64,000 nt of DNA from Myroides oncorhynchi (GTDB lineage Bacteria > Bacteroidota > Bacteroidia > Flavobacteriales > Flavobacteriaceae), in NCBI RefSeq assembly GCF_020905415.1, contig NZ_JAJJMP010000001.1:3545501-3609500 (forward strand). Direction: 5' to 3'. The position numbers were made by a program, and so were the translations under genes. Positions 28,355-63,664 of the stretch are shown here, piece after piece (within the stretch, counting starts at the first letter, position 1; each line of letters opens with the position of its first letter). Below the pieces are notes generated by a model that was not told where the DNA came from, searched no databases, and was given only the letters and a program-made list of their open reading frames with translations.

Positions 28355-28510
28355 AACCCACCATCAGTATTAGCCAAATACTGCAAAGCAATTCTACTTC
28401 GTAGTTCTTTCATTAGTTCTAAAACCATACTATAGTATACCTTAATCACTAATTTAGACTTACCTTGTATAATTACTTTTCGTTTATATGTCTATCGCTG
28501 ATTCTGGATT
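28355..28510 (+). repeat. 156-bp palindromic element, copy A
   Basis: The left end AACCCACCATCAG and right end CTGATTCTGGATT are slightly diverged from the consensus AACCCAGAAT/ATTCTGGGTT. The middle has CCATACTATAGTATA. The arms pair along most of their length. Lies between the Crp-like gene and the permease. Confidence 0.85.
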
Positions 28511-28619
28511 AAAACATCTCACTAGGATGTAGTATAATTATTAAGTTTTTATTGATCTTTTTGTAAAAGAATTATTACAAAATTCACTCTTCTTTCTAGA
28601 TCATTTTAAAAAAATCACC

Positions 28620-28900
28620 ATAACATACATCACTAGGATAAAATAGGCATTTCTATGCTATTTCGGTTTGAGTGAGTCCATAGTGACTCCATTAAAACAG
28701 CCTTTTTAATGGAGTCACTATGCAGTCACAATGCTGTCACTATACTTTCACACATAGCCACAAACTCTAAACAAGATATTAAGGAGAATAATAGACAAAG
28801 TCCGCATGAGATAGAATTGCTGATTTTCAATAGAATAAAAATCATTTTATAACTGCAATCTACAAATTTAAACTGAGAATTTATAAAATTATATCAACCA
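28620..28900 (+). repeat. Family 2 repeat, copy A
   Basis: Homologous to 49620-49915. Shared blocks include GAGTGAGTCCATA, a perfect 19-bp hairpin at 28679-28722 with loop CAGCCT, ATAATAGA-AAAGTCC and TTTTCAATAGAATAAAAATC. No coding frame is shared. Confidence 0.75.
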
Positions 28901-29155
28901 AGATAAGCAAACTATACTTGCTAAATAGAGTACCTTTTAACCAAAAAATAGCTTTTTTAATCAATCTAATAATATTCGAAACCTTGTGTTTTTCATAGAA
29001 TATTATTTGGTACACTACATTTCAATCTATATTAAATTCTGATTATTACACTTTATTTAGCTTAAAATAATATTTAAGATGTAAAGTTTCGCTTATTTTA
29101 TTATCTTTAATTTAAATTAATCATCGATTAATTAGATATTACATACTGCGTTTAA

Positions 29156-29163
29156 TACTTTTG
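29156..29163 (+). promoter_or_regulatory. Promoter -7 of the permease gene
   Basis: TACTTTTG matches TAnnTTTG, 15 bases ahead of the ATG at 29179. Confidence 0.5.
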
Positions 29164-29178
29164 CAACAAATAGTAACA

Positions 29179-30642
29179 ATGGAAAATCAGAATAAGAATC
29201 AAGAAGTAGTACGAGGACTTAAAGCAAGACACCTATCTATGATCGCCATCGGAGGGTGTATAGGAACAGGGTTATTTATGGCAAGTGGAGAAGCCATACA
29301 TCAGGCTGGTCCTGGTGGAGCACTTCTAGCTTATGCGATGATTGGTCTAATGGTATACTTCTTAATGACCTCTTTAGGTGAGATGGCAACATACCTACCT
29401 GTATCAGGATCATTCAGTACTTATGCTGCTCGATTTGTTGACCCATCTTTAGGGTTTGCCTTAGGGTGGAACTATTGGTTTAACTGGGTTATTACTGTAG
29501 CAGTAGACGTCTCTATCGCAGCAGTAGTTATCTCATATTGGGAACCGCTAGGATTCTTACCACCGTGGGGATGGAGTTTACTATTCTTTATTATCATATT
29601 TGGGCTAAATTGTCTATCAGTAAAAGCTTATGGAGAGTCAGAATACTGGTTCGCTATTATAAAAGTAGTAACTGTAGTCTTATTCTTAGGAATCGGACTT
29701 CTAACTATATTCGGAATATTAGGTGGTGAATACATCGGATTTAAGAACTTCACACTAGGAGATGCCCCTATATTAGGTGGTGGTTTCTCAGGTAAGTTCC
29801 TAAGTGTACTGGGGGTATTTCTAATCGCAGGTTTCTCGTTTCAAGGAACTGAACTAATCGGTATCACTGCAGGTGAATCAGAAAACCCTGAGAAAAACAT
29901 TCCTAAAGCAATCAAACAAGTATTTTGGAGAATCTTAGTATTCTATATATTAGCAATCTTCGTGATTGGGTTAATCATTCCATATACAAGTCCTTCCCTA
30001 TTAGGAGCAGACATTTCTGAAATTGCAAAATCACCTTTTACCTTAGTATTTGAGAAAGCGCACTTAGCTTTCGCTGCAGCTGTGATGAATGCAGTAATCC
30101 TTACCTCTATCCTATCAGCGGGTAACTCAGGATTATATGCTTCTACTCGTATGCTATATGCAATGGGAAAAGACGGAATGGCACATAAAGCATTCGGAGG
30201 AACGAATAAAAATGGGGTGCCTTTAATCGCATTAGCCGCTACAGGAGCAGTGGTATTACTAATATTCGCAGTACAGTCTACACACCCTAATGCTGTTGAC
30301 TTTATCCTAGCAGCCTCTGGGCTAACAGGGTTCATTGCTTGGTTAGGTATTGCGATTAGTCACTATAGATTTAGAAGAGCATTCCACGCTCAAAACAAGA
30401 ATTTAGATGCGTTAATATACAAAGCTAAGTGGTTCCCATTTGGACCATTATTTGCCTTATTCCTTTGTGTGCTAGTTATCATCGGACAAGATTCTAAACT
30501 TATTATGGAAGGAGTATTTGACTGGAGAGGAATGCTAATCACCTATATGGGAATACCTTTCTTCTTAGCTTTTTACTTATACCATAAGCTTAAATTTAAA
30601 ACAAAGCTAATCCCGCTTAAAGATGTGGATTTAAAAAGATAA
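29179..30642 (+). CDS. Amino-acid permease (LysP-like, APC family)
   Basis: This proton-coupled amino-acid importer has twelve predicted helices. The ATG at 29179 (MENQNKNQEV) is chosen over an upstream TTG that lies within the promoter element. Family motifs are LKARHLSMIAIGGCIGTGLFMASG in the first helix, GEMATYLPVSGSF, FQGTELIGITAGESENPEKNIPKAI, and SAGNSGLYASTRMLYAMGKDGMA. The pattern is closest to lysine or basic amino-acid permeases, but the substrate cannot be fixed from sequence. 487 residues, normal. A terminator follows. Confidence 0.88.
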   Translation: MENQNKNQEVVRGLKARHLSMIAIGGCIGTGLFMASGEAIHQAGPGGALLAYAMIGLMVYFLMTSLGEMATYLPVSGSFSTYAARFVDPSLGFALGWNYWFNWVITVAVDVSIAAVVISYWEPLGFLPPWGWSLLFFIIIFGLNCLSVKAYGESEYWFAIIKVVTVVLFLGIGLLTIFGILGGEYIGFKNFTLGDAPILGGGFSGKFLSVLGVFLIAGFSFQGTELIGITAGESENPEKNIPKAIKQVFWRILVFYILAIFVIGLIIPYTSPSLLGADISEIAKSPFTLVFEKAHLAFAAAVMNAVILTSILSAGNSGLYASTRMLYAMGKDGMAHKAFGGTNKNGVPLIALAATGAVVLLIFAVQSTHPNAVDFILAASGLTGFIAWLGIAISHYRFRRAFHAQNKNLDALIYKAKWFPFGPLFALFLCVLVIIGQDSKLIMEGVFDWRGMLITYMGIPFFLAFYLYHKLKFKTKLIPLKDVDLKR

Positions 30643-30675
30643 TACCTTTTATAGGTAACAGGAAACAGGAAACGA

Positions 30676-30706
30676 AAAAAGCGTGAGTTTAGACTCACGC
30701 TTTTTG
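30676..30706. terminator. Bidirectional terminator
   Basis: Stem AAAAAGCGTGAGT/ACTCACGCTTTTT, loop TTAG, between convergent genes. Confidence 0.9.
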
Positions 30707-30725
30707 TATTATAAGAGTTAAAATA

Positions 30726-31127
30726 CTAATTTTTAATCTTTATACTTATTATCCCAAAGCTTGTAGCAAAAGATCCATTGATAAAATCTTTTCCAGGAAT
30801 TTTTTTGTATTCAAAACTCTCTATCTTATCTACAGATATACCTTTAAAATAAGAAGATTTCTTCAATTCTATATTATTTTCAGAGCCTACTAATATAACA
30901 GCAAATTCTCCTTTTTCCAATAACGGTAACGCCCCTTGGTTAAAGAACTTTGTTGAACTCAAATAAACACTTTCAATATACTCCTGTAAATCAATTGCAT
31001 TCTCTTTATTTAACATTGTTGCATCTTCAACATCTAATTTTAGAGACACTGTTAACTTTTTAGTACTTTCTTGTGCATAGATATTACTTGCTAAACACAA
31101 AATCAAAAACACCCCAATTTTTCTCAT
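30726..31127 (-). CDS. Hypothetical secreted protein
   Basis: This 133-residue protein has a signal peptide (MRKIGVFLILCLASNIYA, cut before QES). The mature part has LTVSLKLDVEDA and a Lys-rich second half (KKSSYFKGISVDKIESFEYKK split here only by context) ending in GIISIKIKN. No family recognised. The repeated 'KIESFEYKK...GSFATSFGIISI' style hints at a carboxypeptidase-regulatory or plug-like fold, but this is weak. It lies 32 bases downstream of the panE-like gene on the same strand. Confidence 0.7.
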   Translation of the reverse strand: MRKIGVFLILCLASNIYAQESTKKLTVSLKLDVEDATMLNKENAIDLQEYIESVYLSSTKFFNQGALPLLEKGEFAVILVGSENNIELKKSSYFKGISVDKIESFEYKKIPGKDFINGSFATSFGIISIKIKN

Positions 31128-31159
31128 ACTTTTTAATTTATACTAATAATTTAAATCAA

Positions 31160-32110
31160 CTAATTACCTTTGTACTTACTTCCAGAGTATACTACTAGAT
31201 GGTTGCACATCTGTTTATACATCGGTGTTTCTAGACCTAAGAGGACACCTTGTCTTACCATATACCCACCCATAATGCCTAATTCATTGTGTTCTTTAAG
31301 AGCTGTAAAGTCACTGTGCATCGAAGTAGTTGATTCATATGGAATCGCTTTTAATCGCTCTGTAATAACACTTACGATATCAGCTGATAATGCTACACCT
31401 TTCTTCTTTCCTATAGCCGAAGCCTCTACTAATAACTGCTTCATTTCTTCTGGATGATGTTCCATTACACCTCCGAAAGTACTGTTATAGTAAGCAGTTG
31501 CCATTGCAGAGGCAGATACTAAGATATACTTCTCCCATACCTCTCTTGAGATTTCGGAAGTAGCCTCTGCATTTACATTAGCCTCCTTTAAGACAGTCTC
31601 AAAGTCGCTCATTTCCTGTGTCACCTCCCTATCTCGTCCAAAAAGAATACGTTGTCTTCCACTAGGGTTATCAATCACTCCAGCCTCTTTTAAACGAGAA
31701 ACCATATACGTACAGCCTTGCCATACTCTAGCTTCTCCAAATACAGCTACAAGTTGCTCATACGCCTCTACTCCATTAAGCAGAGGGATAATCACTGTAT
31801 GTTCTCCCACACATCCCTTCATATCAGCTATGGTCTGAGATAAGTCATATCCTTTAGTGGCGATGATGATATAATCTGTATGCTTAATATCACTCCAACT
31901 AGAAGTAGCTAAAGCAGGATGTCCTACTACTTCACTGTCTTTTGACAGTACCGTTAATCCCTTTTCTTTAACAGCATCAAGGTGCTTACCTCTCGCTACA
32001 AAACATACTTCTATATCCTGACTATCTTGATATTTATTTGCTAGTAATCCTCCATAAAATCCTCCTACTCCACCAAGCCCTACTATTGTTATTCTCTTTT
32101 TATTTTTCAT
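31160..32110 (-). CDS. 2-dehydropantoate 2-reductase-like protein
   Basis: This ketopantoate reductase family enzyme reduces 2-dehydropantoate to pantoate with NADPH for CoA synthesis. The N-terminal Rossmann motif is ITIVGLGGVGGFYGGLLA. Later features are IIIATKGYDL, the conserved asparagine in IIPLLNGVEAYEQL, the catalytic-type lysine in EVWEKYILVSASAMA, and ERLKAIPYESTTSMHSDF near the C terminus. 316 residues, normal. Bacteroidota often have several paralogues, so a different 2-oxoacid substrate is possible. Confidence 0.85.
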   Translation of the reverse strand: MKNKKRITIVGLGGVGGFYGGLLANKYQDSQDIEVCFVARGKHLDAVKEKGLTVLSKDSEVVGHPALATSSWSDIKHTDYIIIATKGYDLSQTIADMKGCVGEHTVIIPLLNGVEAYEQLVAVFGEARVWQGCTYMVSRLKEAGVIDNPSGRQRILFGRDREVTQEMSDFETVLKEANVNAEATSEISREVWEKYILVSASAMATAYYNSTFGGVMEHHPEEMKQLLVEASAIGKKKGVALSADIVSVITERLKAIPYESTTSMHSDFTALKEHNELGIMGGYMVRQGVLLGLETPMYKQMCNHLVVYSGSKYKGN

Positions 32111-32117
32111 TGTTTTT

Positions 32118-32220
32118 TTATTATTTTTCTGTGATGTTGTGATGTTGGCCCTTTATTAACTTGTAAAAGATGATTATCTTGAACAAAAGACGACATCACT
32201 ATTCCATTTTGAAAGGTAAT
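32118..32220. repeat. Family 3 repeat copy
   Basis: Begins TTTTCTGTGATGTTGTGATGTTG and ends near a GACATCAC stretch. Similar in layout to 11922-12019 and 32291-32386 but less conserved at the right end. Confidence 0.45.
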
Positions 32221-32253
32221 TTAATTAAATGAGAAGACAAAAGAACTAAATAA

Positions 32254-32285
32254 CAAAAGCCGCTCCCCCAAGGCAACGGCTTTTA
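32254..32285 (-). terminator. Terminator of the NCS2 permease gene
   Basis: Stem AAAAGCCG/CGGCTTTT with a 14-base loop, between two copies of the family 3 repeat. Confidence 0.6.
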
Positions 32286-32290
32286 TTGTT

Positions 32291-32386
32291 ATTTTGTAAA
32301 GTCGTGATGTTGTGGTATTGTTCTTTGATTAAATTCACTTTTAAAAAGATAGTTCTCTTGAACGAAAAAACAAAATCACAAAAAAA
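32291..32386. repeat. Family 3 repeat copy
   Basis: Begins ATTTTGTAAAGTCGTGATGTT and ends AAAATCACAAAAAA. It abuts the permease stop codon. Confidence 0.55.
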
Positions 32387-32387
32387 C

Positions 32388-33725
32388 TTATTTCACTACC
32401 ACGTCTAATACGATCTTCAATAAGAACAGTATAGATAATACATATACTGTAGGTGTGATATCTTTGTGCTCTTTTGCTCCTATTTTAAGGACTGTGTAGC
32501 TCAAGATACCGAATACGATTCCCTCTGCTATACTGTACGTAAACGGCATAAAGACAATAGTCAAGAATGCTGGTAGTCCGTCAGACAGCTTGTCAAAGTT
32601 GATTCTAGTAACTGATGATATCATAAATAACCCAACCACAATCAATGCTGGCGCCGTAGCCGCTGCTGGTATAATTAAAAAGACAGGCCCTAAGAATAGC
32701 GCTAAACCAAACATCAAGGCTACACTTACAGCTGTTAATCCTGTGCGTCCACCTGAGGCTACTCCCGATGCACTCTCTACATAAGATGTCACAGAGCTAG
32801 TTCCTAAAATAGATCCTACAGTAGTCCCCATTGCATCTGTAAATAATGCTTTTTTCATTTGTGGGAAGTTGCCATCTTTATCAGCCAAGTTTGTTTTAGA
32901 AATAACACCAATCAAAGTACCTACTGTATCAAATAAGTTGACAAACAAGAAAGTAAATACTACGACTATCATATCTATAGAGAGGATTTGATTCCATCCC
33001 TCTACTGTAAACATCGGCTTAATTGCTTCTCCAAAGATAGGTTCTATTGATGGTGGTAAAGCTACAATGCTCGTCGGCAAGGCTACATCTCCTAAGATTA
33101 GTCCAAATATCGTAGCGCTCAGAATACCAAATAGAATAGCTCCATTCACATTGCGAATTAACAAGATTCCTGTTACTACAAGTCCTATTAAAGTCATCCA
33201 TACGGTATGCTGACCAAAATCTCCTAACCTGACTAAGGTATTAGGATCCGATACTACTACTCCCGCACTCTTCAGCCCGATAAGGGTAATGAATAGCCCT
33301 ATCCCTGCAGGTATTGCTTCTTTAAGCACTTTAGGGATACTTCTGACAATCAACTCACGTACATTAAAGAACGTTAATAGCAAGAAGATGATTCCCTCTA
33401 TAAATACTGCAGTCAATGCGAACTGCCACGTATATCCTAAAGTCAATACTACAGAATAGGCAAAAAAACTATTTAACCCCATTCCTGGAGCTTGTGCGAT
33501 AGGTAACTTGGCATAAAAGCCCATTAGTAAAGTCGCTACGATCGTAGCTAAAGCAGTTGTAGTAAATAACGCTTCTCTATCCATACCTGCATCCGCAAGT
33601 ATATTAGGATTCACTACCAAGATATAAGACATAGTAAGAAACGTAATGATACCCGCTATAAACTCACGTTTAATAGTAGTACCATTGCTACCCAACTGGA
33701 AGTAGCGTTCAAGAAAATTCTTCAT
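32388..33725 (-). CDS. NCS2-family purine permease (guanine/hypoxanthine type)
   Basis: This 445-residue, many-helix membrane transporter belongs to the AzgA/PbuG branch of NCS2. Motifs are REFIAGIITFLTMSYILVVNP near the N terminus, AQAPGMGLNSFFAYSVV in the third helix, VFTFLFVNLFDTVGTLIGV with the conserved Asp-Thr-Val-Gly, and SSVTSYVESASGVASGGRTGLT. The last contains the substrate-binding loop seen in this branch. Predicted to import guanine, hypoxanthine or adenine with protons. It lies in a single-gene unit on the minus strand. Confidence 0.9.
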   Translation of the reverse strand: MKNFLERYFQLGSNGTTIKREFIAGIITFLTMSYILVVNPNILADAGMDREALFTTTALATIVATLLMGFYAKLPIAQAPGMGLNSFFAYSVVLTLGYTWQFALTAVFIEGIIFLLLTFFNVRELIVRSIPKVLKEAIPAGIGLFITLIGLKSAGVVVSDPNTLVRLGDFGQHTVWMTLIGLVVTGILLIRNVNGAILFGILSATIFGLILGDVALPTSIVALPPSIEPIFGEAIKPMFTVEGWNQILSIDMIVVVFTFLFVNLFDTVGTLIGVISKTNLADKDGNFPQMKKALFTDAMGTTVGSILGTSSVTSYVESASGVASGGRTGLTAVSVALMFGLALFLGPVFLIIPAAATAPALIVVGLFMISSVTRINFDKLSDGLPAFLTIVFMPFTYSIAEGIVFGILSYTVLKIGAKEHKDITPTVYVLSILFLLKIVLDVVVK

Positions 33726-33828
33726 TGTGTTGTTGCTTTAAAGCACGCAAAAATAAGAAGTTTTTAGTTAAGTATATCGTTGTAAGTGAGAAATAAGAGC
33801 TTGAGTTTTATTGACTGTTACATCCCCT

Positions 33829-34635
33829 CTATATATTTGTATTAAAATCGCGTTCTATAGGATTCTGATGATTACCTTTCTTTCTATTTAAATATGTTTG
33901 TCCAGCTCCTCCTATTGTAATTCCTGTTCCTTCTAAATCACTTAAAAAAGTCTTATTAGCGTCTATGCTCATCGCCTTCTTTGTTTTCTCCTTAGAAGAT
34001 TCTGTATAGGCGTCCACCTCATTTACATCCCAGATAACATTTACTTTTCGACTATTTAAGAATTCAAAAGAATATTGCTCCTCTGTGTCCCACGCTTTGA
34101 CAACAAACCCTGGTAAGTTATTAAATTTGTATGGACCTACTTGCCCCTGTATATCTTGAGTAAACCACACCGTCCACTCCCTGCCTCCATAAGTAGTAGT
34201 TGCTTCTTGTACTGTGTAATTATTCCATTTTAATTTATCAGCTTTAATATCCCACTTAATTTCGGCTCTATCCTCCTTATAAAAGTTCATTAATCTCCCT
34301 ATTTTATTATAGAATCTATTAATATTCTTATCTGTTATCACAAACCAACTAAACACAGGCCTATATGAGATTACCTTCTGCATAATCTCTTCTTTAGAAG
34401 TATTATCAGCTTTCGTTAATTGCCATCTAGTCTTTTCGTAAGAAGCATAATCCATAAACCTAGATTGATCTTCTTTTACATCTACTATAGCTGTTCCTTC
34501 TCTAACTACATTTTCTGATTTATCTACTAGCACCTTGCTTTCATAGTAATACCTCATTACCTCTACTTCTTCTACCTCTTGGGCGTAAGTAAGGTTGGCA
34601 ATAATCAAAACAAAGAATATGTAATATTTTTTCAT
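33829..34635 (-). CDS. GLPGLI family secreted protein
   Basis: This 268-residue protein has a signal peptide (1-18, ending TYAQ) and a repetitive beta-strand body with MRYYYESKVLVD and YEKTRWQL. The central motif reads GPYKFNNLPGFVVKAWDTE, a degenerate version of the GLPGLI signature that names the family. These Bacteroidota proteins are exported, but their role is unknown. It lies 59 bases after the ankyrin gene on the same strand. Confidence 0.85.
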   Translation of the reverse strand: MKKYYIFFVLIIANLTYAQEVEEVEVMRYYYESKVLVDKSENVVREGTAIVDVKEDQSRFMDYASYEKTRWQLTKADNTSKEEIMQKVISYRPVFSWFVITDKNINRFYNKIGRLMNFYKEDRAEIKWDIKADKLKWNNYTVQEATTTYGGREWTVWFTQDIQGQVGPYKFNNLPGFVVKAWDTEEQYSFEFLNSRKVNVIWDVNEVDAYTESSKEKTKKAMSIDANKTFLSDLEGTGITIGGAGQTYLNRKKGNHQNPIERDFNTNI

Positions 34636-34693
34636 CTAAAGTAATTTAAGTTCAATCAAGAGTGAATAACAAATTTATCTATATAAAGCAAAT

Positions 34694-35761
34694 CTACCTC
34701 TTATACTTCACTTCTCCTAAAGGTATAGGCATTGGGTTTTTAAGTACCCATTTGGATGCTAGTTCACACAAGTAATTAAGTTCCCTTGTTTCACCATTTC
34801 CATACTTGCGTATTCCTGCCACCATCGGTGTTACACTTGCTAAGTCGCGTTCACTAAGAGATACTTCTGTCGAAAGATAGGCTAAATAAGCATCTAGCAT
34901 CTTCTTAAAGTTCGCATCCCAATTACCACCGCCATTCCTATATATCTCATCTCTCACCTTACCTGTGATACGGACAACTTCTCCTTGTACCGTCTTAGCA
35001 CTCCCTTTAGACGGAACTAATAGCTCCCATAGTTCCTCATACTGCTCTTCCCAAACAGTTCCATTCACTTCTATTTTAGAAACTCCATCATGCATAATAC
35101 GTCTTTTTACAGGCGTAACACTGTACAAGTTATACAAAGCACGTAATGCTATATCGGTCTCTTCTAAATAATCTGGATTAAAGTTTTCTCTATGAAACTC
35201 AAAATTTTCTCCTATACGCGTAACATCATCACGCATACTTAAGGTTATTTCTTTCGTATAAGGTAGTAATATCTTAGATACTTCTACTAACGCAGCCAAA
35301 TCAACATTATTCGCTCTACGAAGTGCATAAGTCAAAGGTGTCTCTTTATAGGAGTTTAGCACATTTACTATTGCTCCTTTTTTTATTAAACTCTTCACCA
35401 CTTTTGCATTAAATCCATTACCTGCGGCAAAATGCAAAGGTGAAGATCCGTAGGTATCTATACCATTAACATCAGCACCTAATTCTAAAAAGACATCTAC
35501 TTGTTTTGTTCTTCTTAATCCTGCATGTATATGAAGAGCAGAACGTCCATACGTATCTACAGCTTCTATATCCGCTCCATTCTCCACTAACCATTTGACT
35601 AGCTCATTGGATATCCCATAAAAGCTAAGGGCCGTGGTCTTACCATAACCGCCTCTTGCGTCTATCTCACATATATCAAATACTGCCTTAAGTGCGGCGA
35701 TATCGTTGCTATCTACTAACTCTTGGAAGTTCTTCGGTAGGGTTTTCTTTTTCTTTGCCAT
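34694..35761 (-). CDS. Ankyrin repeat protein
   Basis: This 355-residue cytoplasmic protein has about four ankyrin repeats in residues 35-165. Repeat markers include KTTALSFYGISNELVKWLVENGADI, YGRSALHIHAG, YGSSPLHFAAGNGFNAKVVKSL and YKETPLTYALRRAN (each under twenty residues apart from the first, shown across a repeat join). The C-terminal half (about 180-355) is not recognised. Ankyrins mediate protein binding; the partner is unknown. The start ATG is followed by a basic MAKKKKTLPKNF tail. Confidence 0.85.
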   Translation of the reverse strand: MAKKKKTLPKNFQELVDSNDIAALKAVFDICEIDARGGYGKTTALSFYGISNELVKWLVENGADIEAVDTYGRSALHIHAGLRRTKQVDVFLELGADVNGIDTYGSSPLHFAAGNGFNAKVVKSLIKKGAIVNVLNSYKETPLTYALRRANNVDLAALVEVSKILLPYTKEITLSMRDDVTRIGENFEFHRENFNPDYLEETDIALRALYNLYSVTPVKRRIMHDGVSKIEVNGTVWEEQYEELWELLVPSKGSAKTVQGEVVRITGKVRDEIYRNGGGNWDANFKKMLDAYLAYLSTEVSLSERDLASVTPMVAGIRKYGNGETRELNYLCELASKWVLKNPMPIPLGEVKYKR

Positions 35762-35889
35762 TTACAACTTTAATATTTCTTTTTTCAACTCGAATATACA
35801 AAGAATAATGCAATATAATTTACTCGATAAATAATATTTACCAAACTTAATTACTTATAACTAATTTTAATTCAAAGATCAACGCCTTT

Positions 35890-35937
35890 AACCCAGAATC
35901 AGCATTAGCCAAATACTACAAAGTAATTCTACTTCAC
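35890..35937 (+). repeat. Palindromic element fragment, copy B
   Basis: The first ~47 bases of the 156-bp element (AACCCAGAATCAGCATTAGC, then AAATACTACAAAG). It is cut where the tonB terminator begins. Confidence 0.75.
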
Positions 35938-35939
35938 AC

Positions 35940-35971
35940 AAAAAAAGCAGCATCCGTTACAGATGCTGCTA
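35940..35971 (-). terminator. Terminator of tonB-like gene
   Basis: Stem AGCAGCATC/GATGCTGCT, followed on the minus strand by seven Ts. Confidence 0.9.
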
Positions 35972-35997
35972 GATATAAAAAAAATTTAAAACAAAAT

Positions 35998-36843: not shown

Positions 36844-37504
36844 AATTTTATCATTTAAAAGTTAAACATTGGCTGTTGGATCTTCATCTACCAACAACTA
36901 AATCAATCTACAGCTCTTTTCATACTGTATTAAATAATTAATATTAAACCATATTACATTACAAATATATAAATTATAAACGATAATATTTCATAATTAT
37001 TATTTCAAGTAAAAATATTTCTTAAAATTATGCTAATAAAAAACACATTAATCTATCCTATCTTTCAAAACTTCTAGGTTTTTGGGCAATTAAAATCTAA
37101 TTACTTAGCCAAAAGTTGTACTAACATCGACACGTTTTTTTTAACCCAAAATAAGTGATAGACATATAAATGAAAAGGAATTATACAAAACAGGTCTGAA
37201 TTAGTAATAAAAGCACACCATAGTATGGTTTTAGAGCTTATGAAAGAGCTATGAAGTAGAATGGCTTTGTAGTATTTGGCTAACGCTAATTCTGGGTTCA
37301 ACTAAGGTGAAAAACGGAGTTATATATTTTAGTTATAATCCTAATATTAACAAGGGACTAAATCTATTTTAATTTATACGATGAATATTTTTGTTCCTTC
37401 TGAGGGACTATTTTGGGAAGATGACTGGAATCTGATTGGAACCTAGCAGAAACAAATAAAGCTATCTATGGGGTTAGGTAACTTATTAATATCATTTATT
37501 AATA
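36844..37504. other. Non-coding region with a palindromic element
   Basis: About 660 bp. It contains the full-length reverse copy C (37143-37298). The remainder is AT-rich with no gene or clear promoter recognised. Confidence 0.6.
37143..37298 (-). repeat. 156-bp palindromic element, copy C
   Basis: Reverse orientation. The ends are AACCCAAAATAAGTGATAG and CTAACGCTAATTCTGGGTT, and the central palindrome is eroded to CACACCATAGTATGG. Length exactly 156 bp, as in copies A and G. Confidence 0.9.
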
Positions 37505-49399: not shown

Positions 49400-49437
49400 A
49401 ACCCAGAATATGCGATAGCTAAATACCTCAAAACAAT
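49400..49437 (+). repeat. Palindromic element fragment, copy D
   Basis: AACCCAGAATATGCGATAGC followed by TAAATACCTCAAAACAATT matches the left end of the element. Sequence beyond is unrelated. Confidence 0.6.
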
Positions 49438-49619
49438 TTAGCCTAGTATAAGTATAGTAATTCTACTATACGAAGAAAATTCCCATTTTGGTATTAAATA
49501 TCAAAAAACGGGTGTAGAGAAAATAGTTGAATTTTATTTACTATATTTGTAACCAAATGAATATCAGTATTTATTCTTTTTTTTTAGACCAATCTTCAAG
49601 GTCAATATTTACAATAATC

Positions 49620-49915
49620 GCATCAATATATTAATAGGATATCATAGGTATCTTTATGCTATCTCCGTTCGAGTGAGTCCATAATGAGTCTATAGTGACT
49701 CCATTAAAATGGCTGTTTTAATGGAGTCACTATAGACACACTATGCTGTCAATATGCTTCCTTACAAAACTACATAGCAACTTCATCAAAACAAACATAA
49801 AACAAGGTATTTAGGAGGATAATAGATAAAGTCCATAGAAGATAAGACCTTAGATTTTCAATAGAATAAAAATCATTTTATAGTGGCAAGTTACACGATT
49901 AAACTAAGATTATAT
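49620..49915 (+). repeat. Family 2 repeat, copy B
   Basis: Homologous to 28620-28900. Its hairpin is a perfect 19-bp stem (49691-49709 with 49716-49734). The outermost pair is T-A here and C-G in copy A. Confidence 0.75.
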
Positions 49916-50147
49916 AAAAGATAATAGCTAAAGTGAATAAAAGCAAGATAGTTCCATACGTCGCTTTTGCTAATTACCCCACTACACATTAGCAGTTAAA
50001 ATAATAGAGTGTACTTAAGGTAACAGTAAAAAACTGGCTGTCAACCCGATGTAGCGACTTCGTTAAAATGTAGGTAAAAAGAGCCGTATTTATTCGACAA
50101 TAATGAATAATAAGTTTAAATTTGCCTTTCTAATCTACAAAAAAGTT

Positions 50148-51892: not shown

Positions 51893-52417
51893 ATGAGAGA
51901 GTTTAATTACATCTTAATATCAGAGGGAGCATTTAATGCAAATACCGCTCAAGACATTCTTAATTCTAATATTTCTGTAGTTAATTACCTACGTAGTTCT
52001 GAAGTAGGTGATGATGAGTTACATCCTGATGCTTTTGCGAGCTATTGTGTCGATTATTATTTAAACTCTGTGGAATCTAATGGGCTTGTTTCGTTTATTT
52101 ATAATAGCAAATGGGATTTAGACTTAATCGAGATCATCCACGCTGGATTAATAGCTATGGACGCAAAAGAGCACTTAGAATATTTTGAAAAACAAATGAG
52201 AAGAGTCAAAGCTTTTAGCAATATCAAACTAAAGAAATTCTTTGATACTGAACTAGGGAAAGAAAAAGAAACTGCTTCTTTATTAGAAGACAACTCTTTT
52301 AAAGACATATCGGAGGATTTAAGAGCGCTAAATGCTACTTGGTTAAAAGATCATCCCGATTTAAAAATAGTAAGCCTAGAAGAGATGCAAAGTATCATCA
52401 CTGAATTTATATCATAA
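51893..52417 (+). CDS. DMP19/DUF4375-like hypothetical protein
   Basis: This 174-residue soluble protein has a central segment CVDYYLNSVESNGLVSFIYNS followed by IEIIHAGLIAMDAKEHLEYFEKQMRRV. It resembles the DMP19/DUF4375 pattern (a Gly-rich turn followed by an Ala/Gly helix), but the match is weak. No signal peptide or membrane helix. Role unknown. It follows a terminator, so it probably has its own promoter. Confidence 0.6.
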   Translation: MREFNYILISEGAFNANTAQDILNSNISVVNYLRSSEVGDDELHPDAFASYCVDYYLNSVESNGLVSFIYNSKWDLDLIEIIHAGLIAMDAKEHLEYFEKQMRRVKAFSNIKLKKFFDTELGKEKETASLLEDNSFKDISEDLRALNATWLKDHPDLKIVSLEEMQSIITEFIS

Positions 52418-52420
52418 ACT

Positions 52421-52570
52421 CATTATCTGGATAAGTCAGATAGCACAAAGTAATTCTTCGTTATAAATCCTTCATTAGCTCTTAAATCATACTATATAAA
52501 TATGATGTAATCTAATCGAACCTATTCTGCATGATTACTTTTCGTTTACTTGCCTATTACAGGTTCTGTG
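52421..52570 (+). repeat. Palindromic element, diverged copy E
   Basis: Weakened ends, but the order CAAAGTAATTCTTCG, CTTCATTAGCTCTTAAA, TCATACTATATAAATATGAT and ATGATTACTTTTCGTTTACT follows the consensus. It lies between convergent genes. Confidence 0.65.
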
Positions 52571-52572
52571 AT

Positions 52573-52601
52573 AAAAAAAGCTCCTCAATGAGGAGCTTTT
52601 T
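52573..52601. terminator. Bidirectional terminator
   Basis: Stem AAAAAGCTCCTCA/TGAGGAGCTTTTT, between convergent genes. Confidence 0.92.
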
Positions 52602-53422: not shown

Positions 53423-53431
53423 TCATTTACT

Positions 53432-55089: not shown

Positions 55090-55150
55090 TAAGAATAACC
55101 ACATAGTAGTACACAATAATCACTTTTAAGATACTAAACACTACCTCATA

Positions 55151-55909: not shown

Positions 55910-56058
55910 TCCAAAATCCGCAATAGATAGATAAACGAAAAGCAATTATACAAGATAGGTCTAAATTAGCTCTACCATCATACTATAGTATGGTTTTAGA
56001 GTTAATGAAAGAACTATGAAGTAGAATTGCCTTACAGTATTTGGCTATTGCGGGTTTT
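55909..56058 (-). repeat. Palindromic element, copy F
   Basis: Reverse orientation, ends AATCCGCAATAG and CTATTGCGGGTT, centre CATACTATAGTATG perfect. The ends are altered together, keeping the pairing (CGCAATAG with CTATTGCG). It lies between convergent genes and ends in six Ts. Confidence 0.85.
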
Positions 56059-56063
56059 TTAAT

Positions 56064-56981: not shown

Positions 56982-56991
56982 ATATACAATT

Positions 56992-59103
56992 CTATTTTTT
57001 TAACTTATTTTGATAATACTTATACATTTCTTGTTGCGAATGGAACATATTTTCTTTTGTATATCCTCGATATTTATTAGACAAATCTGCAGTCTGGTAC
57101 CTTGTCTTGTAATTTCCTTTCCATCCTATATTGAAAGTATCTATAAGCTCTTGTTTCACCACTTCATCATAAATTGGGCAAGTTACTTCTACTCTTTCAT
57201 CTAAATTTCTTGTCATAAAATCCGCTGATGAAATAAAGACTTCTGGTTTATTATTATTGCCAAAAATATACACTCGAGAATGCTCTAAGAAACGATCTAC
57301 AATACTGATTGCTTCAATATTCTCACTCATTCCTGGAACACCTGGTATTAAAGAGCATATCCCTCTTATAATCAATTGAATCTTCACGCCTGCATTACTA
57401 GCCTCATATAGTTTATCTATCATTTTTAAATCAGATAAACTATTCATTTTTAAACGAATAAATGAAGGCAATCCATTTTGTGCATTCTTAATCTCTCTAT
57501 CGATTAACTTCACAAAGCCTTTACGGGTATAATGAGGGGATACTAACAGGTGTTTATACTTGTGCACACGGTAATTAACCTGTAAGAATTCAAATACCTT
57601 AGAAACATCTTTCATCAGAGAATTATGACTTGTAAATACTGTGACATCAGTATACACCTTAGCTGTACTCTCATTAAAGTTTCCTGTTGAAATAAAGCCA
57701 TAACGCTTTACCTTTTTATTCTCAAGTCGTTCTACTACACATATTTTGCTGTGCACCTTTAATCCTTTTACACCGAAGATTAACTTTACCCCTTCTGATT
57801 GCATTAACTCAGAATAAAAAATATTAGTTGCCTCATCGAAACGCGCCTGTAACTCTACCTGAGCTACAACTTTCTTTCCATTCTTCACAGCATTAATCAA
57901 TGAACTAATAATCTGTGAATTCTTTGCCAATCGATACAATGTAATTTTTATAGACAATACCTGCGGATCCAAAGCTGCTTCTCTTAAAAACTTAACTAAA
58001 TAAGAATAAGATTGATATGGAGTATAAATCATATAATCTCTCTTCTGAATCTGCTGAATGATACTATCTTCTAAATTTAATCCCTTTACAGGTACAGGCA
58101 CTTGTTTAGGATAAGTAAGATCTATTCTCCCAGTTGTAGGAAAACTCATATAGTCACGTCGATTGTGATATCTTCCTGAAGGAATAATACTATCATTCAA
58201 TTCTATTTCGACATTCTCTAATAAGAAATCAAGCATCTCTTGATCCATTTCTTGATCATAAACGAAACGCACTATAGCTCCTTGCTTTCTATCACGTACT
58301 CCACTAGATATCTTTTCTACAAATGACTTGTGTAAATCAGTATCAAAATCCAATTCGGCATCACGAGTAACTTTAATCATAAAAGCCGATTCTGCTTTAA
58401 AGTCAAAAATACTAAAGATTGAATCCAAGTTATATCGGATGATATCATCTATCATCATAATATATTTTTTATCATCTTCTGAAGGAACTTCTACAAATCG
58501 ATTTACAATGTTAGGTATCTCAATTACAGCGTAACGAATAGCAGAGTTATCTCTCTTCTGTTTATTTGTTTGATGTTTCTCTACCAATAGAGGATCTATC
58601 TCTAGCTTTACAACCAAATAACCATGAGTATCTCTTAATAATGGGAACTCAGCCAAGTCACTTAAGATAATTGTAACCATATCTGGTGAGACTTGATGTA
58701 AGAAAAAATCTTTGACAAAAGCTTGTTGCTTATCATCTATCTCCTGTTCATTCACCATAAATATCCCTTCTTCTTCTAGTTTGCGTTCCACATCATGTAA
58801 AATGCGAACACTTTCTTTCTGAAGTTCAATAACCCTAGCTGTAATTTGAGCTAATAAATCTTTTACGATTACTCCACTCCCTAGCTTTCGATTACTTTCT
58901 CCTGTAAGAGTCATTCTTCGTATTGTAGCATAGCGAACTCTAAAAAACTCATCCAAATTATTTGAGAAAATACCGATAAATCGTAGTCTTTCTAACAGGG
59001 GAACAGTTTCGTCACCCGCCTCTTGCAAAACTCTCTCATTAAATGACAACCAACTTTGCTCGCGGTCTATATATTTATATTTTACTGTATTTTGTGTATT
59101 CAT
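56992..59103 (-). CDS. ppk1: Polyphosphate kinase 1
   Basis: It makes polyphosphate from ATP reversibly through a phosphohistidine. The 703-residue protein has the N-terminal domain with REQSWLSFNERVLQEA, the middle PLERLRFIGIFSNNLDEFF and the two C-terminal PLD-like domains. The catalytic histidine is in GLKVHSKICVVER. A second conserved histidine is in FLEHSRVYIFGN. Length is normal (about 690-730). It is co-transcribed with sixA (3 bases upstream) and ppx. Confidence 0.95.
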   Translation of the reverse strand: MNTQNTVKYKYIDREQSWLSFNERVLQEAGDETVPLLERLRFIGIFSNNLDEFFRVRYATIRRMTLTGESNRKLGSGVIVKDLLAQITARVIELQKESVRILHDVERKLEEEGIFMVNEQEIDDKQQAFVKDFFLHQVSPDMVTIILSDLAEFPLLRDTHGYLVVKLEIDPLLVEKHQTNKQKRDNSAIRYAVIEIPNIVNRFVEVPSEDDKKYIMMIDDIIRYNLDSIFSIFDFKAESAFMIKVTRDAELDFDTDLHKSFVEKISSGVRDRKQGAIVRFVYDQEMDQEMLDFLLENVEIELNDSIIPSGRYHNRRDYMSFPTTGRIDLTYPKQVPVPVKGLNLEDSIIQQIQKRDYMIYTPYQSYSYLVKFLREAALDPQVLSIKITLYRLAKNSQIISSLINAVKNGKKVVAQVELQARFDEATNIFYSELMQSEGVKLIFGVKGLKVHSKICVVERLENKKVKRYGFISTGNFNESTAKVYTDVTVFTSHNSLMKDVSKVFEFLQVNYRVHKYKHLLVSPHYTRKGFVKLIDREIKNAQNGLPSFIRLKMNSLSDLKMIDKLYEASNAGVKIQLIIRGICSLIPGVPGMSENIEAISIVDRFLEHSRVYIFGNNNKPEVFISSADFMTRNLDERVEVTCPIYDEVVKQELIDTFNIGWKGNYKTRYQTADLSNKYRGYTKENMFHSQQEMYKYYQNKLKK

Positions 59104-59105
59104 TT

Positions 59106-59591
59106 CTATTTTAAGTCTCGTGGGAAAATGGTTAATTCAGTAGAACCTTTTTCTATTGCTGCCCAGTCATCTGTATCAAAATTAATTATTACAACGCCTG
59201 ATGTGGGTACATTGTCAAAAGTTTCGCTACCAAATTTATTAACAAATTTCGTGATTGCAGCATTATGACCAAAAAGAATTAATGTATCATGCTCATTTTT
59301 ACAGTTTTTTATTGCCTCCACTAATTGTGAGCGTTCAAATGTGTAAACATCCCTGTTTTCAATAATACAATCCATATTGATCTCCATATTTTGACAAAAT
59401 ATAGTTGCTGTTTTTCTAGCTCTCTTGGCTGGGCTAGTCCACACAATGACTTTAGATGGTAAATGACCTATTAATGCATGAGACACCAAATGTGCATCAT
59501 TTACTCCTCTCTTTGATAACGGGCGTGACAAATCATCAGTAATGGCTTCCCAGCACGATTTTGCATGTCTAATAAGGATTAGTTTTTTCAT
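59106..59591 (-). CDS. sixA: SixA-like phosphohistidine phosphatase
   Basis: This 161-residue histidine phosphatase has the R8-H9 motif of LILIRHAKSCWE, TSPAKRARKTA and LFGHNAAITKFVN with the second catalytic histidine. SixA enzymes remove phosphate from histidine phosphotransfer proteins. It is the first gene of a sixA-ppk1-ppx operon. Because polyphosphate kinase works through a phosphohistidine, a link to polyphosphate metabolism is plausible but unproven. Confidence 0.88.
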   Translation of the reverse strand: MKKLILIRHAKSCWEAITDDLSRPLSKRGVNDAHLVSHALIGHLPSKVIVWTSPAKRARKTATIFCQNMEINMDCIIENRDVYTFERSQLVEAIKNCKNEHDTLILFGHNAAITKFVNKFGSETFDNVPTSGVVIINFDTDDWAAIEKGSTELTIFPRDLK

Positions 59592-59730
59592 AATAGTTTT
59601 ATTTATTGGTAGATTATTGTGTTTTTTTTAGTATATGCATCACATTCCTTGCCAAGAACAACATAAACTTATCTAAATCTAATAAAAAATATCAATATAA
59701 AATATATTTTATGCTATAAAATAAAAACTT

Positions 59731-59738
59731 TACTTTTG
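59731..59738 (+). promoter_or_regulatory. Promoter -7 of DUF4199 gene
   Basis: TACTTTTG matches TAnnTTTG, 24 bases before the start. Confidence 0.5.
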
Positions 59739-59762
59739 AACTATTAATTATAAAACAGAATA

Positions 59763-60308
59763 ATGAGGAATTTCTCTATTGAATTTAAATGGGCTTCTAT
59801 AGCTACTTTAGCTGCTTTAGTATGGATGTTTATTGTCAAATCACTAGGTTTTCATGAGTTAGAAAAGATTAGATATGAAGTCGGACTTCAATTAATTTTC
59901 AACCTTGGACTTACTGTATTTTATTGGCTGGGTATTAGACAGAAGAAAAAAGAGTTTTACAATGGAGTTATTTCTTGGCAACGTGCTTTCTTATCTGGAC
60001 TTGTCATTTGTATTATGATTACCTTCTTCTTCCCTCTTATACAGTACATCACATTCATGCAAGTGACTCCTAACTTTATGAATACGTTACAAGTGGCAAT
60101 GACTACACAAACCAAAATGCCTCTAGAGGAAGCTATTAACTATGCATCATTTGATATATACTTGCGAAATGGCGTAACCAACAACCTGTCTTTTGGTGTT
60201 GTAATTATCGCTATTATTTCGTACTTTATTCAAACCAAAAATGCTGCTGAAATAGTAACTACTCCACAGCAAAAAAAGAACAATAAACGAAAATATAACA
60301 ATAAATAA
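59763..60308 (+). CDS. DUF4199 family membrane protein
   Basis: This 181-residue protein has four predicted helices (about 11-25, 42-58, 76-97 and 138-155) and a basic C-terminal tail (KKNNKRKYNNK). The layout and the conserved SWQRAFLSGLVICIM-type loop fit the DUF4199 family common in Bacteroidota. Function unknown. kdsA follows 9 bases later and is probably co-transcribed. Confidence 0.8.
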   Translation: MRNFSIEFKWASIATLAALVWMFIVKSLGFHELEKIRYEVGLQLIFNLGLTVFYWLGIRQKKKEFYNGVISWQRAFLSGLVICIMITFFFPLIQYITFMQVTPNFMNTLQVAMTTQTKMPLEEAINYASFDIYLRNGVTNNLSFGVVIIAIISYFIQTKNAAEIVTTPQQKKNNKRKYNNK

Positions 60309-60317
60309 ACAGATCTT

Positions 60318-61136
60318 ATGAATCTAAATAATATACCCTTAATCAAAAATGTGGACGCTGATAACTTCTTTTTATTAGCTGGTCCTTGTGCTATTGAAGG
60401 TGAAGAAATGGCAATGCGTATTGCAGAAAAACTAGTTACAGTAACAGATAATCTTAAAATTCCTTTTGTATTCAAAGGTTCTTTTAAGAAAGCTAATAGA
60501 TCTCGTATTGACAGCTTTACTGGTATCGGAGACGAAACAGCTCTTAAAATCTTACAGAAAGTAGGTAAAGAGTTTGGCGTTCCTACAGTAACTGATATCC
60601 ACGAAAACTCTGATGCTGCCATGGCAGCTGAATATGTAGATGTATTACAAATCCCAGCATTCCTTGTAAGACAAACTGACCTGGTAGTAGCTGCAGCAAA
60701 TACTGGTAAAGTAGTCAACCTTAAAAAAGGGCAATTTATGAGTCCTGAGAGTATGAAGCATGCCGTACAGAAGGTATTAGACTGTCATAACGATAGTGTT
60801 ATGGTTACTGATAGAGGTACAATGTTTGGATACCAAGATATGATTATTGATTATAGAGGTATTCCTACTATGCAACAATATGCTACTACAGTATTAGATA
60901 TTACACATTCTTTACAACAACCTAACCAAGCTTCTGGTGTTACAGGAGGACGTCCTGATTTAATCGAGACTGTTGCAAAAGCTGGTATTGCAGTTGGTGT
61001 AGATGGATTGTTCCTAGAAACACATTTTGACCCAGCAAATGCGAAAAGTGATGGAGCAAATATGCTTCACTTAAACTACTTTGAAGATTTGATGAAAAAA
61101 TTAGTTGATATCAGACAAACAATCAATAAATTTTAA
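60318..61136 (+). CDS. kdsA: KDO 8-phosphate synthase
   Basis: It condenses phosphoenolpyruvate with arabinose 5-phosphate to make KDO 8-phosphate for lipopolysaccharide. The 272-residue TIM barrel has LLAGPCAIEGEEMAMRIAE, the substrate loop FKGSFKKANRSR, and DRGTMFGYQDM. It ends with the metal/substrate segment VDGLFLETHFDPANAKSDGANML shown here only in part. Length normal. Marks the cell as Gram-negative with an LPS core. Confidence 0.95.
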   Translation: MNLNNIPLIKNVDADNFFLLAGPCAIEGEEMAMRIAEKLVTVTDNLKIPFVFKGSFKKANRSRIDSFTGIGDETALKILQKVGKEFGVPTVTDIHENSDAAMAAEYVDVLQIPAFLVRQTDLVVAAANTGKVVNLKKGQFMSPESMKHAVQKVLDCHNDSVMVTDRGTMFGYQDMIIDYRGIPTMQQYATTVLDITHSLQQPNQASGVTGGRPDLIETVAKAGIAVGVDGLFLETHFDPANAKSDGANMLHLNYFEDLMKKLVDIRQTINKF

Positions 61137-61221
61137 AAAAATATTTTAACACTACTTTTTTTATAACCAATCAGTTAGATAAATTGAGGTGAGAAAAGTA
61201 GAAAAAAAAGCCTTGCATCTC

Positions 61222-61251
61222 TTGCAGATTAAGAAAACAGCACTATATTTG
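61222..61251 (+). promoter_or_regulatory. Promoter of the tRNA-Tyr cluster
   Basis: TTGC (61222-61225), an 18-base spacer and TATATTTG (61244-61251), 35 bases ahead of the first tRNA. This is the best full promoter in the window. Confidence 0.75.
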
Positions 61252-61286
61252 CACCGTTCTAAACAAACAAGATAAGCAAAAGCTTA

Positions 61287-61370
61287 GGGGAGATACTCAA
61301 GCGGCCAACGAGGACGGACTGTAAATCCGTTGGGTAACCTTCGCAGGTTCGAATCCTGCTCTCCCCACCA
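61287..61370 (+). tRNA. tRNA-Tyr (GTA), copy 1
   Basis: An 81-nt class II tRNA: acceptor GGGGAGA pairs with TCTCCCC, the anticodon loop reads CTGTAAA with GTA, and the T arm is GGTTCGAATCC. This copy alone is followed by an encoded CCA (61368-61370). Confidence 0.97.
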
Positions 61371-61418
61371 AACGTTCATTAACAAGAAAATATTACTTAG
61401 ATATAACCTTTTTAGGAA

Positions 61419-61499
61419 GGGGAGATACTCAAGCGGCCAACGAGGACGGACTGTAAATCCGTTGGGTAACCTTCGCAGGTTCGAATCCTGCTCTCCCCA
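61419..61499 (+). tRNA. tRNA-Tyr (GTA), copy 2
   Basis: Identical to copy 1 over all 81 bases; CCA not encoded. Confidence 0.97.
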
Positions 61500-61550
61500 C
61501 TAATAAAGTCATATTGTATAAAAATCATAGTCTAATTTAACCTTTTAGGA

Positions 61551-61631
61551 GGGGAGATACTCAAGCGGCCAACGAGGACGGACTGTAAATCCGTTGGGTA
61601 ACCTTCGCAGGTTCGAATCCTGCTCTCCCCA
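61551..61631 (+). tRNA. tRNA-Tyr (GTA), copy 3
   Basis: Identical to copies 1 and 2; followed by CGA, so CCA is added after transcription. Confidence 0.97.
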
Positions 61632-61675
61632 CGAAGACTTTTTATACAATATATTATCTAAGTTACCTCTTAGGA

Positions 61676-61756
61676 GGGGAGATACTCAAGCGGCCAACGA
61701 GGACGGACTGTAAATCCGTTGGGTAACCTTCGCAGGTTCGAATCCTGCTCTCCCCA
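61676..61756 (+). tRNA. tRNA-Tyr (GTA), copy 4
   Basis: Identical to the others. A strong terminator follows 5 bases later. Confidence 0.97.
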
Positions 61757-61760
61757 CAAT

Positions 61761-61789
61761 AAAAAAGCGATCAATTGATCGCTTTTTTT
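61761..61789 (+). terminator. Terminator of the tRNA-Tyr cluster
   Basis: Perfect palindrome AAAGCGATCA/TGATCGCTTT with loop AT and seven Ts. Confidence 0.93.
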
Positions 61790-61852
61790 GTTTTTAATAT
61801 TACTTATTACACTTCGCTTTTTAATATTAAAAAGCTTAAAGATTTAGCTTCC

Positions 61853-61944
61853 TACTCTTCGTCTTGTACGTCCTTAGAATTTCTTTGAGGATTACTAGCC
61901 CAGAACGCTTTTCTCAACGAAATGTGTATAAAACCTTCTAACAC
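61853..61944 (-). other. Possible remnant of a short gene
   Basis: The minus strand reads LEGFIHISLRKAFWASNPQ, then RNSKDVQDEE and a stop, in one frame. There is no ATG. The frame continues upstream into the palindromic element copy G, so any real start has been lost or never existed. It reads like protein but cannot be assigned. Confidence 0.25.
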
Positions 61945-61973
61945 AACTCTAACAACTAAGATTAATCTCCTTA

Positions 61974-62129
61974 AACCCAGAATCAGCGTTAGCCAAATAC
62001 TACAAAGCGATTCTATGTCATAGCTCTTTCATTAGCGCTATAACCATACTATAGTATGCTTAAATCACTAATTCAGATCTATTTTGTATAATTTCTTTTC
62101 CTTTATATGTCTATCACATATTCTGGGTT
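61974..62129 (+). repeat. 156-bp palindromic element, copy G (best copy)
   Basis: Ends AACCCAGAAT and ATTCTGGGTT are perfect inverses and the centre is CCATACTATAGTATGC. The arms match over most of 78 bases: AAAGCGATTCTA on one side and TATAATTTCTTTTC on the other. Confidence 0.92.
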
Positions 62130-62254
62130 AAACAATCTGATAAATCATTTATCAAACTCTATCTTACTTCACTATTTCACCTACTTTTTTAGGAAAAAAA
62201 AACGATAATACGTTTTTATACCTATCATCGCCTTCATTCTATTAGTTACACTAT

Positions 62255-63382
62255 TTACTTCAGTGTTATTTTCTTTCCATCTCTCATCACCACAAGCGTT
62301 GGTCTATCTTTTGTGCGCTGTAAGTATTTTCTATAGCCACACATTTTATCCATAGAGACTCCATCTATAGACAACACTACATCTCCTAGCCTAACCTCCT
62401 TCTCCTTTTCACCAATAGCTGCTATTATATACTGTTCATCTATATAAGCAATACCATAACCGATTTTCTCTAAAGTTGCTGTAACTGTGCTATCCTGAAC
62501 CTTTTTAAAATATAACAGTTTAAATGAAGGCAAATAGAAAAAATGAAATTGCTTAATAAATTCCACGCCCATCTGATAAGTACTATAACTAGCTGTATAA
62601 GTAAGCTCCTCTTTATCTAATACAAGCTTTCCTAAACTCAACGTTGCATCTTGAGTGATTAATGTTCTACTTACAGATTCATTCATACCAAATGCCCCTA
62701 CACTACCTACACTAATATAGGTATTATACTTTAGCCCACTCAAATATCCTAACAATCCACGATCTGCACTCACTGTAAGATAACCGTTATCTCCTGTATC
62801 AAAGAGAAATGGTCTCTTCTGTCCTTTTCCTATAGTTCCAGGAATAACGATACGTGTATCGTTATTATATTCTAGATTCTCTACTGATATAAACTTATCG
62901 TTCAACAACCTATCTACCAGTTCAGGTGAAAAATCCTGTAGAATAATCTCTTTTTTTATAGGATCCACTTCTAATACCTTATTCTTATAAATAACATTCC
63001 CTAATACGCCATCTATCTTATAACATTTAAAGATAGGATCATTAACCATAGGAAAAGATTCAAAATCAGTAAAAGGCAAACCTTTAAAAGTATAATTACC
63101 CACTTTAAGACTATCCACATATAATGTAGGTATAGCCTGCACCACATTATTAGCATCTTTAGCTGCAATATGTTCTCCTTCATAATATTCTTCTAATAAG
63201 CTAGCTCTTATTGACAATCCATCCCAACCAGTATCAAAGAGAAAAGTCATTGGTTGATTATTAACTTTTAAATCAACTAACATCCAACCTGAATCATCAT
63301 TATACGGCAATCGAATAGTCTGTCCAAATCCAGTAAAAGTGGACATTACAAAAACAAACAGTAAGAAATTTATAAACCTCAT
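62255..63382 (-). CDS. Secreted aspartic protease-like protein with PDZ domain
   Basis: This 375-residue protein has a signal peptide (1-20, ending FTGFGQ). Two retropepsin-like lobes follow, each with the motif FLFDTG (D50-T-G and D195-T-G). The C-terminal PDZ domain (about 305-375) reads GIAYIDEQYIIAAIGEKE then RLGDVVLSIDGVSM. Two DTG loops in one chain would supply both active-site aspartates, as in pepsin, rather than needing a dimer. Bacterial members are poorly studied; peptidase activity is inferred. Confidence 0.88.
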   Translation of the reverse strand: MRFINFLLFVFVMSTFTGFGQTIRLPYNDDSGWMLVDLKVNNQPMTFLFDTGWDGLSIRASLLEEYYEGEHIAAKDANNVVQAIPTLYVDSLKVGNYTFKGLPFTDFESFPMVNDPIFKCYKIDGVLGNVIYKNKVLEVDPIKKEIILQDFSPELVDRLLNDKFISVENLEYNNDTRIVIPGTIGKGQKRPFLFDTGDNGYLTVSADRGLLGYLSGLKYNTYISVGSVGAFGMNESVSRTLITQDATLSLGKLVLDKEELTYTASYSTYQMGVEFIKQFHFFYLPSFKLLYFKKVQDSTVTATLEKIGYGIAYIDEQYIIAAIGEKEKEVRLGDVVLSIDGVSMDKMCGYRKYLQRTKDRPTLVVMRDGKKITLK

Positions 63383-63527
63383 ATAGCATTATATTATTTA
63401 ACTAAAATAGCCTTTTATTTTGACTGTTTTAAATCTTTAAGAATAATTGTCTTCTTTTTTAACAGACCATTATTTATTCTTTTAAAAAGTCTTCAACCTA
63501 CTTCAATCACTCCATTAGATTACATTA

Positions 63528-63664
63528 AACCCACATTAGCTAAATACTACAAAGCAATTCTACTTCATAGCTCAATAACCATATTATAGCATGCTGATAT
63601 CACTAATTCGGATCTGTTTTGTATAATTGCTTTTTACTTATATGCCTATCACATAATCTAGATT
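63528..63664 (+). repeat. Palindromic element, shortened copy H
   Basis: 137 bp; the left end lost part of AGAATCAGC. Internal AAATACTACAAAGCAATTC and CCATATTATAGCATG, plus TGTATAATTGCTTTTTACTT, follow the consensus. Confidence 0.8.

Follow-up and report, generated by a model that had tools for sequence, protein, structure and literature searches.

A 152-bp miniature mobile element with IS1380-type ends in the genome of Myroides oncorhynchi

Miniature inverted-repeat transposable elements (MITEs) are miniature mobile elements without genes, recognized by a length of roughly 30-300 bp, occurrence in many copies, terminal inverted repeats resembling the ends of an intact insertion sequence (IS) and duplication of the target site. 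The bacterial group includes the Correia and ERIC elements (PMC2229807). Insertion sequences of the IS1380 family make 4-5 bp target duplications, and the left inverted repeat of one of them, ISEc9, has been published as ACGTAGAATCTAGG, which read inwards is CCTAGATTCTACGT (passages of PMC12116815). The transposases of this family have been called distant prokaryotic relatives of piggyBac, in connection with TTAA targets (a passage of PMC10140906). Here, we describe a repeat that occurs in several copies in a 64,000-nucleotide stretch of the Myroides oncorhynchi genome (contig NZ_JAJJMP010000001.1, positions 3,545,501 to 3,609,500 of the forward strand; this whole stretch is the window referred to below). 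The repeat is a 152-bp MITE with IS1380-type ends, an assignment that is well supported, and we put at about 0.9 the probability that it is moved by an IS1380-family transposase of the same genome.

A profile built from 31 copies delimits the element proper as 152 bp, CCCAG...CTGGG, with inverted ends that begin CCCAG, a conserved centre CATACTATAGTATG, palindromic symmetry throughout and no transposase gene. The original prediction, made from the letters of the window, had reported a palindrome of 156 bp; the repeat is real, and the surplus arises because, on each side, the count had taken in two of the five duplicated target bases. The profile search that had been proposed alongside it returned 130 copies or fragments that do not overlap one another; 86 of these are near full length, with 41 on the + strand and 45 on the - strand. 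The DNA searched consisted of the window, 30 loci and 83 stretches retrieved around 89 places that matched the motif or the model, so that the genome-wide number is at least 130. The 110 that score at least 50 bits cover 16.7 kb, or 0.4% of the genome. Genome-wide, a 20-bp core motif allowed up to three mismatches has 120 matches, compared with seven for the same motif read backwards. Two identical copies with identical flanks lie 2.3 kb apart in this genome (C1:1860686 and 1862959); since both element and flanks are identical, the pair is attributed to a segmental duplication and not to two insertions.

Exact 5-bp direct repeats lie directly outside CCCAG...CTGGG in 46 of the 86 near-full copies, where 16.1 would be expected from left and right flanks taken from different copies. 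A further 21 copies have four of the five flanking bases alike, and flanking repeats of 6-9 bp were found in none of the 86. The exact duplications read TTAAA in 19 cases, TTTAA in 16, ATAAA in six and other sequences in five. Both flanks of all 130 copies were also compared with 98 loci (897 kb, in part overlapping) of other genomes, and for 12 distinct copies the two flanks matched close to the junction in another genome. At five of these (copies 14, 68, 72, 103 and 104, the last two being copies E and F of the window) at least one relative has a clear empty site, with a net difference of -5 or -6 bp, i.e. with one duplication missing. Three sites are occupied in the relative (copies 12, 67 and 70; 151-152 extra bases). 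The remaining four were not used as evidence (copy 0, the flank of which is another MITE, copy 83, with flanks that are too diverged, and copies 85 and 101), and the row for a 45-bp fragment was likewise set aside. The repeat is mobile and duplicates AT-rich 5-bp targets, TTAAA, TTTAA and ATAAA. The suggestion in the original prediction of a non-autonomous mobile element, to be checked by empty sites and target duplications, is well supported by both, by the number of copies and by the presence in the same genome of an IS with the same ends.

These results bear on the idea that the copies are repetitive extragenic palindromes (REP), which a RAYT transposase spreads without duplicating the target. 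They are indeed palindromic and intergenic and number about a hundred or more, but the target duplications and clean empty sites are at odds with such a mechanism, as are ends held in common with a DDE insertion sequence (no search for RAYT genes was made), and we give it almost no credence.

The genome contains two intact IS1380-family transposase genes (Pfam PF13701, 179.3 and 176.4 bits), one of which scores 253 bits against the NCBIfam IS1380 model NF033539 (cut-off 180); three weak PF13701 matches besides these fall below the family cut-off. The ends of both insertion sequences are CCCACATTCCGCATTAG / CCCAGATTACGCATTAG, apart from a single change in one right end, and the 17-bp ends are common to the IS and the MITE. 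The original prediction could not match the repeat to a named family; its ends match those of an IS1380-family IS. When the 17-bp IS end was sought in the whole genome with at most two mismatches, 36 matches were obtained, compared with none for the sequence read backwards: four are ends of the IS, 29 fall within MITE copies (in some cases at both ends of one copy) and three are elsewhere. Eight matches that are free of mismatches are MITE ends. The IS copies in the window's genome sit between TTAAA or TTTAA repeats, the 1400-bp IS copies in two other genomes (G330 and G296) have ATTAA and TTTAA duplications, and the 5-bp duplication made by the MITE falls within the 4-5 bp of the family. The shared ends and targets make movement of the MITE by the IS1380 transposase likely. 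Derivation of the MITE from the IS by internal deletion receives no support, no leftover parental interior being detectable beyond the level of shuffled sequence; with an interior unlike that of the IS, the MITE is better said to share ends with it.

Six of 398 genomes drawn from the same GTDB genus, the window's genome among them, carry the MITE, with two candidates scored in each genome. Counted on both strands, the model matches number 149 in the window's genome (G000), at least 150 in G296, 76 in G123, 30 in G020, four in G267 and two in G076. A family-level sample gave the MITE in one of 397 genomes, the window's own; the five other carriers are not among the genomes matched there. A 35-base pattern found 39 stretches in a species-genome collection, 38 in Myroides records and one in a Flavobacteriaceae metagenome-assembled genome; as the pattern covers only 11 of the copies retrieved from the window's genome, it gives no proof of absence elsewhere. 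A close transposase (96-100% identical) is present in three of the 398 genomes (G000, G296 and G330); six other genomes have relatives of it that are more distant or broken.

Several points weigh against movement by the IS1380 transposase. An exact duplication is missing from 40 of the 86 near-full copies, and the 86 include one segmental duplication that contributes two copies. Beyond the terminal 17 bp or so, the MITE resembles the IS no better than shuffled sequence does. Four MITE carriers (G123, G020, G076 and G267) gave no transposase match at E 1e-20, and G330, which has the transposase, gave no MITE match, few candidates per genome being scored in either case; the IS and the MITE are therefore not strictly coincident. 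Movement in trans is suggested by the shared ends and targets, and the transposase considered as a mover was that of IS1380. A transposase of another family might be responsible, the match of the ends being partial convergence. The unrelated interior of the MITE and the carriers without a close transposase match could be explained in this way. Nevertheless, 33 of the 36 matches to the 17-bp end fall in the IS or the MITE, and both use the same AT-rich 5-bp targets, and we consider such convergence highly improbable.

In the scheme that we favour, a DDE transposase of the IS1380 family most likely binds the ends of the MITE and moves it in trans, as the shared ends and targets suggest. Insertion into AT-rich 5-bp targets (TTAAA, TTTAA, ATAAA) with their duplication is the step documented above. 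Insertions within genes or promoters would probably be lost to selection, leaving survivors that are intergenic and oftener at the 3' ends of genes, and the remaining copies would subsequently decay.

Within the window, all six of the copies named in the original prediction are present, well above chance. They lie between open reading frames (ORFs) and in both orientations, as had been described, and the 5-bp duplications of copies E and F overlap the end of the preceding ORF. Copy A (28357..28508, + strand) was found by the profile at the full 152 bp and has an exact TTAAA duplication at 28352-28356 and 28509-28513. Copy C (37145..37296, - strand), also 152 bp by the profile, is flanked by TTTAA and TTCAA, which are alike at four of five bases. 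Copy G (61976..62127, + strand; 152 bp) has an exact TTAAA duplication at 61971-61975 and 62128-62132, and a comparison of this copy with plasmid and phage collections gave no match at E 1e-5. Copy H (about 63530..63662, + strand) is internally shortened to about 133 bp, with TTAAA at 63525-63529 and 63663-63667. Copy F (55910..56061, - strand) has one eroded end, and its site is without the element in G123, G296 and G020, with extras of -6, +42 and +3, respectively. Copies A, C, G and H have no row in the flank comparison; the spacing of matches, which is not exact to the base, suggests that copies G and H are absent from G123 (shorter by 185 and 157 bases) and copy H from G296 (shorter by 145).

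Copy E (52419..52570, + strand) is the most diverged in the window. It lies directly 3' of the stop codon of one gene and 5' of a hairpin followed by T's, and has an exact ATAAA duplication at 52414-52418 and 52571-52575. The site reads ATAAA, element, ATAAAaaaagctcctcaatgag in the window's genome and a single ATAAAaaaagctcctcaatgag, with one ATAAA, in G296; it is also without the element in G123 and G020, with small other differences (extra +15 and +24). The best matches of copy E are at 75-77%, yet its duplication is exact and its site in G296 precisely empty; either it came from a diverged source or it is an old copy that was precisely lost in relatives. Two fragments had also been predicted, at 35890 and 49400. 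The first is a clean 45-bp left end (35892..35936, + strand; profile score 36) in which TTTAA precedes CCCAG. The second (49402..49440, + strand), in which TTAAA precedes CCCAGAATATGCGATAG, looks like a left end but has no profile match at E 1e-3, and is treated as no more than a probable left-end remnant.

With a crude ORF caller, 42 of the 86 near-full copies lie between tandem genes, 27 between convergent and 12 between divergent genes, while four overlap an ORF and one is at an edge; the intergenic regions of the window, for comparison, are 22 tandem, ten convergent and nine divergent. One of the four overlapping copies was inspected: the TTG start of the ORF is inside the element, and the start of the gene is probably downstream of it. 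This placement, between genes and more often convergent than divergent, agrees with insertion and subsequent loss of the copies in genes and promoters. The scarcity of ORF overlaps and the surplus of convergent over divergent pairs would also suit a functional RNA hairpin (a transcript stabilizer, terminator or regulator) that had multiplied by movement or duplication and was retained for its RNA. A functional hairpin of RNA or DNA had been offered in the original prediction, and its symmetry is evident. Copy G, the one copy folded, folds back over its entire length at -30.2 kcal/mol compared with a mean of -18.96 kcal/mol for shuffled sequences (z -3.57), and the inner arms covary to some extent, in keeping with the predicted pairing of the arms.

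This covariation was examined in 78 sequences, which remained after the removal of near-duplicates from 98 gap-free copies. Seven inner pairs have at least five two-sided compensated cells in the true register, whereas the 96 other registers average 0.98 and never exceed four. With a laxer count (pairs with at least two compensated cells) the true register has 16, where the others average 7.3 and reach 15 at most, a margin that counts against an RNA. Mainly paired positions contain 75 G-T and 134 A-C cells (46 and 70 in the inner part). An RNA transcribed from the reference strand would predict an excess of G-T, and the A-C excess can be read as G-U on the other strand; pair by pair, however, G-T leads at 13 pairs and A-C at 19 (ten and 12 in the inner part), and an excess so uneven is read as no consistent strand preference. 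Nor are the copies biased in orientation relative to the gene that has its 3' end toward them (50 same, 46 opposite). Three copies shared with relatives display no clear constraint, the elements being 83, 84 and 91% identical and their flanks 89/86, 97/71-72 and 92/96%; copy 67 is mixed, its element being more conserved than one of its flanks but less so than the second, and the alignments contain 13 gap positions for copy 67 and 36 for copy 70. No terminator-like or sigma-70-like site was found in or around copy G, and Rfam at the gathering score gave five tRNA matches only across the window. Some covariation is present, but strand-consistent G-U pairing and a preferred gene orientation are not, and a functional RNA appears very unlikely.

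A single transposase has to recognize both ends, so covariation there is expected. That of the inner arms is not accounted for in this manner, although subfamily founder copies could also produce it. Since the inner arms covary and the CATACTATAGTATG centre is conserved, it may also be asked whether the DNA hairpin, when extruded, has a role of its own in movement or copying, the palindrome being kept for this purpose and arm-to-arm repair keeping its symmetry; we consider this unlikely.

The window has other features. A second palindromic repeat family, with core TGAGTCCATAGTGACTCCATTAAAA, a short loop and TTTTAATGGAGTCACTAT, occurs at 28625-28888 and 49626-49919, and at roughly 30 places in the genome (40 of 73 candidates scored; 53 matches, both strands counted); by eye it has no likeness to the MITE. 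An ORF with ISL3-family transposase domains (PF01610) at 235-1949 is flanked by 84-nt inverted repeats. Four similar tandem tRNA genes, 125-132 bp apart, lie at 61287-61756, and a tandemly duplicated stretch at 17092-17306 contains hairpins followed by T's.

No description of the Myroides element was found among the open-access papers searched, judged by title or start of abstract, subscription papers and ISfinder being outside this scope; the matching passages of a comparative genomics paper on M. odoratimimus mention an insertion-sequence analysis and no such repeat (PMC6391281). We therefore rate the element as new, within a known kind. The element provides Myroides with a MITE family whose likely mover resides in the same genome. 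Its insertion sites number about a hundred or more; as some of these differ between species, they could serve as strain markers. The way in which IS1380 transposases (the family to which ISEcp1 belongs) recognize their ends could also be studied on the MITE, a compact substrate of natural origin.

The Myroides repeat resembles MITECca01 of Cardinium and the TIMEs in being short, multicopy and gene-less, with IS-like ends and short direct repeats (passages of PMC4133298 and, for MITECca01, PMC9769881). The mover is IS982 for MITECca01 and Tn3 for the TIMEs, whereas the likely mover here is of the IS1380 family. The sequence differs from theirs, as does the AT-rich 5-bp target. In the Bacillus cereus group the repeat bcr1 is near 155 bp in length and forms a hairpin. 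It too is short and multicopy, with mobility tied to a TTTAT motif (a passage of PMC6542083), but its host belongs to a different phylum, and the likeness is one of description. The piggyBac element, eukaryotic and with a 4-bp TTAA duplication, offers an analogy only. There is a correspondence, too, with the IS1380 insertion sequences themselves (ISEcp1/ISEc9 and relatives): the ISEc9 end, CCTAGATTCTACGT in the passage cited above, compares with CCCAGATT in Myroides, and the Myroides transposase scores above the cut-off of the IS1380 model, whereas the repeat is 152 bp and not 1400 bp long, has no transposase and is palindromic over its full length.

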